From Anaerolineales bacterium (GTDB lineage: Bacteria > Chloroflexota > Anaerolineae > Promineifilales > Promineifilaceae), in contig WTJY01000362.1 in the NCBI GenBank assembly GCA_011524645.1, positions 1-39,240 of the forward strand: a stretch of 39,240 bases of DNA, given 5' to 3'. The notes under the pieces are model-generated. The model saw nothing but the letters and a program-made list of their open reading frames with translations. It made no database searches and was not told the DNA's origin. Below, in pieces: positions 15,269-20,552 of this stretch (position 1 is the stretch's first letter; every line of letters begins with the position of its first letter). Made by a program: the position numbers and the translations under genes.

Positions 15269-16087
15269 ATGTCTGTAGAAATTTCATCTCAATTTGGTGG
15301 CCAAGGGGGCCAAGAATTTATCATCCATTTGCAAGAAGATTCAGAACGCATTGTGGCTATTCAAGGCACGGCCGGAGATTTCGTGGATGCTTTTCAAATC
15401 ATTTCACTGAACGCTGCCGGACAATACAGTGAACTTGACGTTGTGGGTGGCTCTGGCGGCCAACAGTTTTTGTTCGAACTTAATGATGGGGAATATTTGA
15501 CCGGAATTAGTGGCCGTTATGCTGGTTTTATCGATCAAATTCAATTCCATACGAACCTTCGCACTTCTCCAATTTATGGGGGGGCTGGTGGTCAGAAATT
15601 CGCGCTTCATGCTCCGGCTGGGGCAGAAGTGGTTGGATTTGCGGGCCGTGCCGATTGGTATATCGATGCGATTGCGATTGTGACACGTCCTTTGGCTGCG
15701 CCCAGTGTAGTTGAAACCGCGACTGAAGCGGTAACCAAGACGATTGTCGCTGCGCAAGAATTGGTTGCTGAGAAAGTTGCCGATGTCAAAGAAAAAGCGG
15801 CCGAAGTCGTTGCTGCCGTGCGGGAAGCGAAACCGAAAGATCTGCAAAAAATCGAAGGGATCGGCCCGAAAATCTCCCATATTTTGGTTGAAAATGGCAT
15901 CCCTGATTTGGCCGCCTTGGCGGATACCCAAGTTGATAGCTTGAAAGGGATTCTTAAAGATGCCGGATCACGCTATAAATTAGCCGATCCGACAACTTGG
16001 CCAGAACAAGCCAAGGTTGGTGTCGATGAAGGGATGAAAGCGTTGAAAGCGTTTCAAGCGAAGTTGAAAGGTGGAAGACGCAAATAA
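15269..16087 (+). CDS. Three-fold jacalin-like beta-prism fused to a helix-hairpin-helix domain
   Basis: A 272-residue protein with an unusual pairing of domains. Residues 1-141 contain three similar units, each opening with GGxGGQxF (10-17, 60-67, 104-111) and ending in a G-x-x-G....hDxhxh strand (about 26-46, 75-95, 119-139). This is the layout of a jacalin-related mannose-binding-type beta-prism with clear three-fold symmetry. Residues 145-190 are an Ala/Glu/Lys-rich helix or coiled coil. Residues 190-265 form a helix-hairpin-helix region (LQKIEGIGPKISHILVENG) of the kind found in predicted flap-endonuclease-like DNA-binding proteins. There is no signal peptide, so it is probably cytoplasmic. 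AGGAGG precedes the ATG. Ligand and role are unknown. Confidence 0.8.
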   Translation: MSVEISSQFGGQGGQEFIIHLQEDSERIVAIQGTAGDFVDAFQIISLNAAGQYSELDVVGGSGGQQFLFELNDGEYLTGISGRYAGFIDQIQFHTNLRTSPIYGGAGGQKFALHAPAGAEVVGFAGRADWYIDAIAIVTRPLAAPSVVETATEAVTKTIVAAQELVAEKVADVKEKAAEVVAAVREAKPKDLQKIEGIGPKISHILVENGIPDLAALADTQVDSLKGILKDAGSRYKLADPTTWPEQAKVGVDEGMKALKAFQAKLKGGRRK

Positions 16088-16300: not shown

Positions 16301-17611
16301 ATGACCAATAAAAGTTCTCGTTTCCCCGGCTTCTATAAATTGAGCGTTGCGGAGCGAGTTGAGAAAGTAATCGAATGGGCCGATCTAGGCTCCGATGAAG
16401 AAGCTGTTTTGCTGGGGGCCGGATTGACCGCTGAGCAAGCGAGCAACATGATCGAGAATGGAATCGGGACACATGCCTTGCCATTGGGGGTGGCGGTTAA
16501 TTTTATGATTAATCAGCGCCACTATTTGATCCCGATGGCGGTGGAAGAGCCGAGCGTTTTGGCGGCCGTTTCGAATGCGGCCAAAATGATTTATGCGGGG
16601 GGCGGGTTTACCGCGACCGCAACCGAACCGGTGATGATAGGCCAAGTGCAAGTGCTCGATATGCCCGATTTAGACACGGCCGTGCAAGCGATTCATGACA
16701 ATCGGGAATTGCTGATGGAGATCGCCAATAGCACCAGCCAGAACATTGTGCGACGGGGTGGTGGCGCACGTGATGTGATCGCTCGGCCGTTCCCTGAAAC
16801 GGCTGTTGGCCCGATGTTGGTTGTGCATTTGCATTATGACTGTCGGGATGCGATGGGGGCCAACGCGATTAACACGGCCGTCGAAGCGATGGCGACGACG
16901 ATTGCCGATTTGACCGGCGGCCGGACCAATTTACGAATCCTGTCTAATTTGACCGATCAGCGGACCGCGACGGCTACTTGTACGATTCCGGCCGAGGCGT
17001 TGGCGCCGAAGGGAATGGACGGCCGTGAAGTAGCCAAACGGATCGCTGAAGCGAACGCATTTGCGGTGGTGGACCCGTATCGGGCGGCGACCCACAACAA
17101 AGGGATCATGAACGGCATCGATGCGATCTGTATCGCTACCGGCAATGACTGGCGTGCGCTCGAAGCGGGGGCCCATGCGTATGCGGCCAATAGTAGTCGG
17201 TATGGCTTCGGTCAATATTCTTCTCTGACCGATTGGCACGTCGATGACAATGGGGACCTCTATGGGGAGATCACCTTGCCTTTGGCTGTCGGAACTGTTG
17301 GTGGGGCGACCAAAGTTCACCCGACCGCCCAAGTGGCACTGAAGATTTTGCAAGTTGAATCATCTGGTGAACTGGCCCAAGTGATGGCTTGTGTCGGTTT
17401 GGCGCAGAATTTAGCCGCGATTCGTGCCCTTGCGACCGTTGGGATTCAAGCGGGACATATGCGGATGCATGCGCGTCAGGTCGCTATGGCGGCCGGTGCG
17501 ACCGGACCACTGGTTGATGCGATCGCTCAATTATTGGTCCAAGAAAAAAATATTCGAATTAACCGAGCAACTGAGTTGCTCGAGACGATGACTAAAGCAA
17601 CAGTTTCGTGA
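16301..17611 (+). CDS. mvaA: Hydroxymethylglutaryl-CoA reductase, class II
   Basis: Interconverts HMG-CoA and mevalonate, the committed step of the mevalonate route to isoprenoids. The 436-residue protein is of the class II type first known from Pseudomonas mevalonii: [19 protein letters not shown] at the start, [17 protein letters not shown], and catalytic candidates E83 (VEEPS), K267 ([10 protein letters not shown]), D283 (ATGND) and H386 (AGHMRMHAR). The genes downstream make its substrate, so a biosynthetic direction is more likely than mevalonate degradation. It opens a same-strand cluster with HMG-CoA synthase, a thiolase homologue and DUF35. Confidence 0.95.
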
Positions 17612-17617
17612 CGAGCG

Positions 17618-17658
17618 ACGAGTGACGAGTGACGAATATGTTCTCACTCGTCACTCGT
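17618..17658 (+). repeat. Heptad hairpin between the HMG-CoA reductase and synthase genes
   Basis: A perfect 15-bp stem (17618-17632 with 17644-17658) is made of repeated TGACGAG heptads and has an 11-nt loop. It lies in the 88-bp gap inside the cluster and resembles a REP-type mRNA-stabilising element. A similar one follows the next gene. Confidence 0.75.
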
Positions 17659-17699: not shown

Positions 17700-18782
17700 A
17701 TGACAACGTTGGAACAAAACAACAAGGATGAAACACTCCTGCGGCCGGTTAATCCGGTTGGGATCGTGGGATACGGGGCGTATGTCCCCCGCTATCGCAT
17801 TGAAGCGACTGAAATTTCCCGCATGTGGACCGGTGGCAAAGGTGGGGTCCCGATTAAAGAAAAAGCGGTCAACGGACTCGATGAAGATGTCACCACTATG
17901 TCGATTGAAGCGGCACGGAACGCCGTGAATCGCTCACAAGTGAACCCGCACGACATTCGTGCGGTATGGGTCGGGAGTGAAAGCCACCCATATGCGGTAA
18001 AGCCGACCAGCACCATTGTCGCCGAAGCGATCGGCGCAGTGCCTAATACCCAAGCGGCCGACTGGGAATTCGCTTGTAAAGCGGGAACTGAAGCGATGCA
18101 AGCGGGGATCGGTTTGGTCGGTAGCGGTATGGGGAAATACGCCTTGAGTATCGGCATGGATACCGCCCAAGGGCGGCCTGGTGACGCGCTAGAGTACACC
18201 GCTGCGGCCGGTGGTGCGGCGATTATGCTGGGACCTGCGGCGGAAGCGGCCGTGGTCATCAATGCCTCCTTCTCTTATGTAAGCGATACCCCTGACTTTT
18301 GGCGGCGGGCCCATGCCCAATACCCCTCGCACGGGGACCGCTTTACCGGTGAACCGGCCTATTTCAAACATGTGATCGGTGCTTCTGAAACACTCATGGA
18401 AAAGATGGGGCGTACAGCGGCCGATTATCGCTGGGTGGTGTTCCATCAGCCCAACGCGAAATTCCCGATGCGGGCTGCAAAAATGCTTGGCTTCCAGCCG
18501 GAGCAATACGAAGCCGGCTTGCTCAGTCCACGGATCGGCAATACCTATTCCGGTGCGGCGATGATCGGTTTGACCGCTATTCTCGATGTTGCCCAAGCGG
18601 GTGATCGCATTTTAATGGTCAGCTACGGCTCCGGCGCGGGATCAGACGCCTTTGACTTAGAGGTCACTGAAAAAATTGACGAAATTCGGGATCGTGCCGC
18701 CAAAACAGAAGATTATATCGCGCGGCGCAAACTGATTGATTATGCAACCTATGCCCGTTTCCGGGACAAACTGAAGGGATAA
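17700..18782 (+). CDS. Hydroxymethylglutaryl-CoA synthase, archaeal type
   Basis: Condenses acetyl-CoA with acetoacetyl-CoA to HMG-CoA. The 360-residue protein matches the archaeal branch: [14 protein letters not shown] near the start, [29 protein letters not shown] with catalytic C126, DTPDFWRR and [11 protein letters not shown] with H249. The catalytic Cys and His are both present, unlike in the neighbouring thiolase homologue. I chose the ATG at 17700 behind GGAGA; an in-frame GTG at 17622 would start inside the heptad hairpin and add 26 unrelated residues. In archaea this enzyme forms one complex with thiolase and a DUF35 protein, and the same neighbours occur here. Confidence 0.95.
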
Positions 18783-18850
18783 GGAGTGACGAATGACGAG
18801 TGACGAGTGACGAATAAACGGCTCGTCACTCTAAACTCGTAGCTCGTCAC
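18783..18850 (+). repeat. Heptad repeat and hairpin between synthase and thiolase genes
   Basis: Tandem TGACGAG/TGACGAA heptads fill about 18787-18815. GAGTGACGAG (18799-18808) pairs with CTCGTCACTC (18823-18832). It is the same repeat family as 17618-17658. Confidence 0.7.
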
Positions 18851-18859
18851 TAAAACATT

Positions 18860-20008
18860 ATGACAGTAGCAATTGTAGGATTAGGACAAACATCTGTAGG
18901 TGAGCATTGGGATGTCTCTTTGCGTCATCTCGCGTGGCAAGCGATTGAACGAGCGTTAGACGACGCCGCCACAACTGATATTGATGCCCTGTATGTGGGA
19001 AACATGTTGGCGAGCAAATCGAGCCACCAAGACCATCTGGGAGCGCTGATCGCTGATTATTCCGGCTTGCGTGGCGTAGAAGCGGTCGCTGTAGATGCGG
19101 GTGAAGCATCTGGCGCGGTGGCGATGCGCCAAGCGGTACTGGCTGTGATGAGCGGGCAGATTCGGACCGCGCTGGTGGTCGGTGTTGAAAAAGCGACCGA
19201 TCAGACCGGTAGCGAATCGTTGTCTTCTCAATCGACCGGTTTGGATGCAGACTATGAAACGGTTCATGGGTTGACCCCGGCCGCGATGGCGGGGCTGATG
19301 ATGCGCCGTTATATGCATGAAAACGAAGTGGGTGTGGCTGAATTTGCAAACTTTAGTGTGAACGCCCATGCCAACGGAGGAAAGAATCCGCTGGCGATGT
19401 TCCGCAACCGTTTTCGGGCGGAGAAATTTACCAAAGCGCCGCTGGTGGCCGATCCGGTCTCTTTGTTTGATGCCTCTCCTGTCGGGGATGGGGCGGCCGC
19501 TGTGGTGATTACTTCGCAAGAACGAGCGATGGATATGGTGCCTCAGCCGGTGCGGGTTAGCGGTTCGGCCGTAGCGACCGATGCGTTCGCTTTGGCGGAT
19601 CGGCAAAATCCGCTGTGGCTTAAAGCGGTGGAACTCAGCTCCGAACGTGCTTTGCGGCAGGCCGGTTTAGCGATCGAAGATGTCAATTTATTTGAACTGC
19701 ATGATAGCTATACGATTATGTCTACGCTGGCACTTGAAGCGATGGGGCTTGCTGATCCGGGGCGTGGCTGGAAGCTCGCGGCCGAAGAAAATATTTTGGA
19801 CGGCCGTTTACCGATGAGCACATTTGGTGGCTTGAAAGCACGTGGCAACCCGTTGGGGGCGACCGGTATCTATCAGATCGTTGAAGTGGCTCATCAACTG
19901 CGCGGCTCGGCCGGTGCCAACCAAGTGGCGGATGTCAAAGTCGGCTTGGCGCAAAATATCGGGGGGACAGGCGGAACAGCTGTGACCCATGTGCTACAGA
20001 TCGATTAG
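18860..20008 (+). CDS. Archaeal-type thiolase homologue lacking the catalytic cysteine
   Basis: 382 residues, co-linear with archaeal acetoacetyl-CoA thiolases: AIVGLGQTSVGEHWDVSLR, IDALYVGNMLAS, LFDASPVGDGAAAVV, FELHDSYTIMS (H281), GGLKARGNPLGATG and NIGGTGGTAVTHVL. The usual nucleophile motif EAACASGG reads DAGEASGA here, putting Glu82 where the acyl-accepting Cys belongs. The GHP motif reads GNP, so its His is Asn330. The protein contains no cysteine at all. Conventional thiolase chemistry is therefore unlikely. It may be a structural partner of the HMG-CoA synthase next door, or carry out a non-thiol reaction as ketosynthases with a replaced Cys do. The frame is open and full length, which argues against simple decay. 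Confidence 0.9.
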   Translation: MTVAIVGLGQTSVGEHWDVSLRHLAWQAIERALDDAATTDIDALYVGNMLASKSSHQDHLGALIADYSGLRGVEAVAVDAGEASGAVAMRQAVLAVMSGQIRTALVVGVEKATDQTGSESLSSQSTGLDADYETVHGLTPAAMAGLMMRRYMHENEVGVAEFANFSVNAHANGGKNPLAMFRNRFRAEKFTKAPLVADPVSLFDASPVGDGAAAVVITSQERAMDMVPQPVRVSGSAVATDAFALADRQNPLWLKAVELSSERALRQAGLAIEDVNLFELHDSYTIMSTLALEAMGLADPGRGWKLAAEENILDGRLPMSTFGGLKARGNPLGATGIYQIVEVAHQLRGSAGANQVADVKVGLAQNIGGTGGTAVTHVLQID

Positions 20009-20195: not shown

Positions 20196-20552
20196 ATGCA
20201 AGTCGCAAAACATTGGCGTATGAAAGCGCAACGGTACTATATGGGACAAGACGGTGTGGCTCCCGCCACAACAACACAACAAAATGCTGAAGATTTTCAG
20301 TTTAACGGCCGTGGTGAAATCTATTCTTATAGCACCGTTTATGATGCCCCTGCTGGGTATGAAGGGCAAGCTCCTTACACGGTGGCCTTGGTAAAATTAC
20401 AAGAAGGGCCATTGGTAACTGCGCAATTGACCGATATTGATGAAGATGAATTGCGTATCGGGTTGCCGGTTGAAATGACCACCCGTAAGCTTCTGACCGA
20501 AGGGGAAGAAGGGATGATTGTGTATGGCTATAAATTTCGCCCTTCGTTTTAA
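20196..20552 (+). CDS. DUF35 OB-fold acyl-CoA-binding protein without zinc ribbon
   Basis: 118 residues. The region GRGEIYSYSTVYDAPAGYEG, APYTVALVKLQEGPLVTAQL and the C-terminal MIVYGYKFRP match the OB-fold half of DUF35 proteins that bridge thiolase and HMG-CoA synthase in archaea and share the CoA site. The N-terminal rubredoxin-like zinc ribbon of typical members, with four Cys, is replaced by a Cys-free stretch (about 12-35). GGAG precedes the ATG. The 187-bp gap upstream contains a small inverted repeat (ATTTTCAC/GTGAAAT, about 20132-20152) and TTTTTCGA repeats, so this gene may have its own promoter. It closes the cluster. Confidence 0.88.
   Translation: MQVAKHWRMKAQRYYMGQDGVAPATTTQQNAEDFQFNGRGEIYSYSTVYDAPAGYEGQAPYTVALVKLQEGPLVTAQLTDIDEDELRIGLPVEMTTRKLLTEGEEGMIVYGYKFRPSF

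Follow-up and report, generated by a model that had tools for sequence, protein, structure and literature searches.

A thiolase-fold protein without its nucleophilic cysteine in the HMG-CoA synthase operon of Chloroflexota

The thiolase superfamily includes members whose nucleophilic cysteine is replaced. Among these are ketosynthase chain-length factors and KSQ domains, which are ACP-dependent and have structural or decarboxylase roles; KSQ domains additionally require conserved Gln and His residues. The archaeal complex of thiolase, HMG-CoA synthase (HMGS) and a DUF35 protein is read as a channelling device that drives the unfavourable thiolase step. All three subunits of the archaeal complex contribute residues that bind CoA (PMC6392133). 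A related assembly, PhlABC, contains an HMGS-like protein (PhlA) that lacks the Cys as well as the Glu and to which no more than an assembly role is ascribed (PMC6392133). Here we consider a stretch of 39,240 nucleotides (the window) from an Anaerolineales bacterium, contig WTJY01000362.1, whose mevalonate operon encodes a Cys-less thiolase homologue.

The mevalonate operon of the window

The genes are arranged in the order HMGR-HMGS-thiolase-DUF35 (Table 1), and profile matches to the three partners agree with the archaeal-type mevalonate cluster proposed in an earlier, sequence-only reading of this DNA. The third gene encodes the thiolase-fold subunit, denoted THL in the following. Its translation confirms the residues noted in that reading: Glu82 (VDAGEASGA) and Asn330 (ARGNPLGATG) align with Cys and His, respectively, in both Pyrococcus furiosus 7YVY and the Methanothermococcus complex thiolase 6ESQ, His281 is kept (FELHDSY; codon CAT, 19700-19702), and the gene has no Cys codon. 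The same two entries are the best PDB matches by sequence, with 7YVY first and 6ESQ chain A second (236 bits). An AlphaFold2 single-chain model (pLDDT 89.5, pTM 0.92) has 6ESQ chain A as its top structural match (Z 61.6, rmsd 1.2 A over 379 residues), a comparison that concerns the fold of the single THL chain. We use the term Cys-less for proteins in which the nucleophile Cys is replaced, irrespective of other Cys; since proteins of the Cys-less clade described below have 0-3 Cys, the total absence of Cys from THL is nothing special by itself.

Table 1. Genes and catalytic codons of the operon (positions in the window)
Feature	Positions	Strand	Remarks
HMG-CoA reductase, class II type, 436 aa	16301..17611	+	Pfam HMG-CoA_red 373 bits; NCBIfam TIGR00532 398 bits
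HMG-CoA synthase (HMGS), archaeal type	about 17700..18782	+	TIGR00748 546 bits, match from residue 46
Cys-less thiolase-fold subunit (THL), 382 aa	18860..20008	+	E82 for Cys, N330 for His, H281 kept
THL codon 82, GAA (Glu)	19103..19105	+	nucleophile Cys position
THL codon 330, AAC (Asn)	19847..19849	+	GHP His position
DUF35 OB-fold subunit, 118 aa, without zinc-ribbon cysteines	20196..20552	+	Pfam OB_ChsH2_C 76 bits

A sequencing error, which the sequence-only reading had raised together with the possibility of intact close relatives, is rejected: Glu and Asn recur in an independently assembled Ardenticatenaceae MAG (L046, 74% identical to THL), and Asp, Glu, Asn, Gln or Gly occupy the nucleophile site in dozens more genomes. 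The gene is also no pseudogene, being full length, without internal stops and with dN/dS far below 1.

The HMGS of the window keeps Glu120, Cys152 and His275 (residues counted from GTG 17622), and its best PDB match is 6esq_I (448 bits). We note that seven matches to a ACTCGTCACTCGT-type 7-base tandem repeat are found on both sides of the HMGS gene, at 17611-17658 and 18789-18815 (chance expectation 0.04). The GTG at 17622 lies inside this repeat, and the in-frame ATG at 17700 is therefore the likelier start. The DUF35 protein (best PDB match 6esq_E, 86 bits) has lost all four zinc-ribbon cysteines and contains no Cys at all. Upstream of the operon, positions 15269-16087 encode a 272-aa protein with a jacalin-like lectin domain and a helix-hairpin-helix domain.

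Distribution and constraint of Cys-less copies

Cys-less operon copies are widespread. Within the family of the window, all 40 genomes read carry a Cys-less copy in an HMGR-HMGS-thiolase-DUF35 operon; position 82 is mostly Asp but also Glu, Asn or Gln, and position 330 is Asn in nearly all. Further Cys-less operon copies occur in five families of the same class (f2, f5, f12, f13 and f14, with Gly/Phe, Asp/His, Gly/Asn and other combinations), whereas in seven (f3, f4, f7, f8, f9, f10 and f11) the operon copy still has both Cys and His. Outside the class, four families (f61, f25, f35 and f64) share the gene neighbourhood of the window operon and a DUF35 protein without zinc ribbon; their thiolases read EAAGASG, with His281 replaced by Thr, Ser or Cys (once His) and Asp (once Asn) at position 330. 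The first three of these families we take to be relatives of Roseiflexus, Chloroflexus and Herpetosiphon. A copy from f24 (L230), likewise outside the class, combines Gly/Asn with a DUF35 protein that keeps the ribbon. Operon thiolases are intact in Myxococcota, Calditrichota, Gemmatimonadota and Acidobacteriota. Taken across operon copies, position 82 is D, E, G, Q, N or T, position 330 is N, F, H or D, and H281 is lost in several lineages.

HMGS adjoins the Cys-less gene on the same strand in 58 loci of at least 7 kb (some genomes occurring twice), and all four genes are present in 40 of the 64 Cys-less loci of at least 7 kb, six of the 64 being distant Ltp2-like matches. The catalytic Glu, Cys and His of HMGS are kept in 131 of 131 loci. 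Of 82 loci with a Cys-less thiolase, 60 still have the zinc ribbon of DUF35, versus 27 of 27 loci with an intact one (some genomes counted twice). The remaining 22 of the 82 loci, which include L019, L046, L052, L056, L190, L231-L236 and L238-L243, have lost it, compared with none of the intact loci; this second partner also seems to be decaying.

In a maximum-likelihood tree computed with the catalytic columns removed, the Cys-less operon copies of Anaerolineae form one clade (37 rows, support 100/98). Stand-alone Cys-containing copies form a separate clade (100/99) that also takes in a single intact operon copy. The intact thiolase of L227 (genome G232, f11), where the gene order is HMGR-HMGS-DUF35-thiolase, groups with the stand-alone Cys copies and possibly links the operon and stand-alone lineages. 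Archaeal-type thiolases with Thr for Cys (RAATATG) and both His kept make up a third clade (100/100); they too are stand-alone and are found in other genomes from several Chloroflexota families (L139-L153, L177, L183, L189 and L237). Once other families are added, two main Cys-less clades appear; a single origin of all Cys-less copies is neither established by the tree nor rejected by the AU test (p 0.5).

THL is under strong purifying selection: pairwise dN/dS is 0.03-0.14, compared with 0.02-0.13 for the intact stand-alone thiolase and 0.01-0.11 for HMGS. The Anaerolineae Cys-less clade keeps 78 of the 95 positions that are near-invariant in intact homologues. Constraint is lost at 13 positions, namely 82, 124, 125, 127, 140, 254, 283, 284, 291, 330, 332, 371 and residue 2, the last at the alignment end. 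These include the nucleophile and GHP sites and neighbours of the HD motif; judged from thiolase anatomy, 124-140, 254, 291 and 371 probably also line the active site. New invariant residues of the clade are few (e.g. Ala83, Gly117 and Pro230); among them, Ala83 alone is next to the nucleophile. The Cys-less lineages as a whole share no newly invariant active-site residue.

Acetoacetyl-CoA supply and the role of the subunit

Every one of the 46 genomes that have a Cys-less operon copy encodes a classical thiolase elsewhere (PF00108, E <= 1e-40), consistent with the earlier suggestion that a separate canonical enzyme accompanies this form. Among 15 genomes with an intact operon copy it is missing in six (G349, G037, G304, G136, G382 and G232); the contrast, 46/46 versus 9/15, gives a Fisher p of 9e-5 with relatedness ignored, and, as the six genomes come from only three families, it reflects few lineages. 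The genome of the window harbors two classical thiolases, an AtoB-like protein with both catalytic cysteines (L172; VNKVCGSG and CLGGG) and a FadBA pair (L173). It also encodes mevalonate kinase and (di)phosphomevalonate decarboxylase side by side (L171), and no DXR match was detected in it; mevalonate therefore appears to be its isoprenoid route.

We consider it likely, with a probability of roughly three in four, that THL is a former thiolase that persists as a non-catalytic subunit in an archaeal-type HMGS/DUF35 complex, the complex being fed external acetoacetyl-CoA. THL would then lack thiolase activity, be seated in the complex and depend on other thiolases for acetoacetyl-CoA. In the solved complex CoA sits at the interface of HMGS, DUF35 and thiolase, and HMGS therefore very probably depends on the thiolase fold both to assemble and to hold acetoacetyl-CoA. 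After a separate enzyme, a classical thiolase, had taken over the supply, selection on the nucleophile would have lapsed, and the active site would have drifted while the remaining fold stayed; HMGS would be the working enzyme, with THL completing the assembly and the CoA site. At the level of sequence, a structural or CoA-binding role with acetoacetyl-CoA from another thiolase appears well supported by the family-wide conservation, the relaxation centred on catalytic positions and the classical thiolase in every Cys-less genome. This part of the sequence-only reading is supported; its other option, a non-thiol reaction, fits poorly with the heterogeneity at 82, 330 and 281. There are points against this explanation: the classical thiolases could serve beta-oxidation only, some Cys-less copies keep both His281 and His330 and may have weak residual CoA chemistry, and the dominance of Asp and Glu at position 82 in the window's family could hint at a lineage-specific role. 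The broader statement, that such a pseudoenzyme sits at the core of the thiolase/HMGS complex in the essential mevalonate pathway of much of Chloroflexota, with the CoA site kept for loading external acetoacetyl-CoA, and that a channelling enzyme has become a scaffolded HMGS, possibly more than once, we hold to be only slightly more probable than not.

Alternatively, THL might pair with a Cys-containing paralogue encoded elsewhere, in the manner of a ketosynthase and its chain-length factor, forming a half-active heterodimer in the complex. Most genomes of the window's family as well as f2 and f5 genomes indeed have an intact stand-alone archaeal-type thiolase, forming the separate clade described above, and having no HMGS or DUF35 adjoining it might borrow the operon partners. 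The neighbourhoods of two stand-alone copies, L136 and L196, were inspected for a clue to function and none was found. However, the genome of the window (94.8% complete) contains no second archaeal-type thiolase, and our search found no intact archaeal-type copy in the Roseiflexus-, Chloroflexus- or Herpetosiphon-like genomes with a Cys-less operon copy. Obligatory pairing as a general rule is therefore rejected, and a heterodimer is an unlikely explanation for THL.

The subunit might also have gained a non-thiol acyl-CoA reaction. One candidate is a retro-aldol cleavage as in Ltp2 and Sal, another the decarboxylation of malonyl-CoA, for which KSQ domains and the Trypanosoma SCP2-thiolase-like protein serve as models. 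Cys-less thiolase relatives with DUF35 partners do catalyze aldol cleavage, and TbSLP decarboxylates malonyl-CoA, though very slowly (PMC12329534); the mostly acidic residue at position 82 in the window's family points in the same direction. We nevertheless regard a new reaction as improbable, because the substitutions are heterogeneous; moreover, the gene stays with HMGR and HMGS, where decarboxylase or aldolase chemistry has no use. Finally, THL might still make acetoacetyl-CoA, but by an atypical route: the acyl group could be carried by a different residue, or the condensation could take place directly on the cysteine of the neighbouring HMGS. The retention of the gene in the operon would be accounted for, and HMGS has an acetylatable Cys near the shared CoA site (PMC6392133). 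The lack of a conserved alternative nucleophile, the replacement of His330 by Asn, Phe or Asp, and the additional thiolase that accompanies the Cys-less form in every genome make this route very improbable.

If a large share of Chloroflexota has indeed lost the thiolase chemistry while retaining the architecture, channelling cannot be the sole reason for that architecture, and the natural variants would allow a direct test of what the thiolase fold contributes structurally to HMGS. The label acetyl-CoA acetyltransferase is probably a misannotation in such mevalonate operons, a point of relevance to pathway reconstruction and engineering.

Comparison with known systems

In the searchable literature, which leaves most subscription papers out of reach, we found no report of thiolase/HMGS complexes in Chloroflexota or of a thiolase pseudoenzyme. 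The parts of the complex are known; the loss of thiolase chemistry, in much of a phylum, within a conserved thiolase/HMGS/DUF35 operon seems to be the undescribed part. The sequence-only reading had gone further and suggested an undescribed system, which is too strong given how clearly each of the three partners is related to the solved Methanothermococcus complex (6ESQ). All three subunits of the window are homologous to those of this complex, the THL model superposes on its chain A, and the active-site residues of HMGS are kept. The differences are the replaced Cys and GHP His of the thiolase, the loss of the DUF35 zinc ribbon in the window, a close relative and the Roseiflexus/Chloroflexus-like genomes, and a probable external source of acetoacetyl-CoA.

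Cys-less members of the thiolase superfamily offer further comparisons. The Sulfolobus tokodaii protein ST0096 (PDB 4YZO, annotated as thiolase-like protein) likewise has an archaeal-type thiolase fold with the nucleophile Cys replaced, in its case by Ser, but is only 28-31% identical and keeps the GHP motif. A KSQ-type decarboxylase differs in that the operon copies have no single fixed residue at position 82 and do not uniformly keep His at position 330. The steroid aldolases Ltp2-ChsH2(DUF35) and Sal-Shy(DUF35) (PDB 6OK1, 9MYR; PMC12329534) also combine a thiolase fold without nucleophilic Cys with a DUF35 partner. However, THL has HDSY in place of their catalytic YDHF or YDCY motif, and its neighbours are HMGS and HMGR rather than a hydratase; matches bearing YDHF (L062-L067) are only 29-30% identical to THL. 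Membership in this group is therefore rejected.

The PhlABC Friedel-Crafts acylase (PpATase, PDB 5M3K) shares the architecture of HMGS-like, DUF35 and thiolase-like subunits, in which one of the condensing enzymes has been inactivated, PhlA having Gly in place of Cys, and seems to be retained for the sake of assembly (PMC6392133). Its product and pathway are different, and the roles are exchanged: in PhlABC the dead subunit is HMGS-like and the thiolase-like subunit is active, whereas the window would present the reverse.
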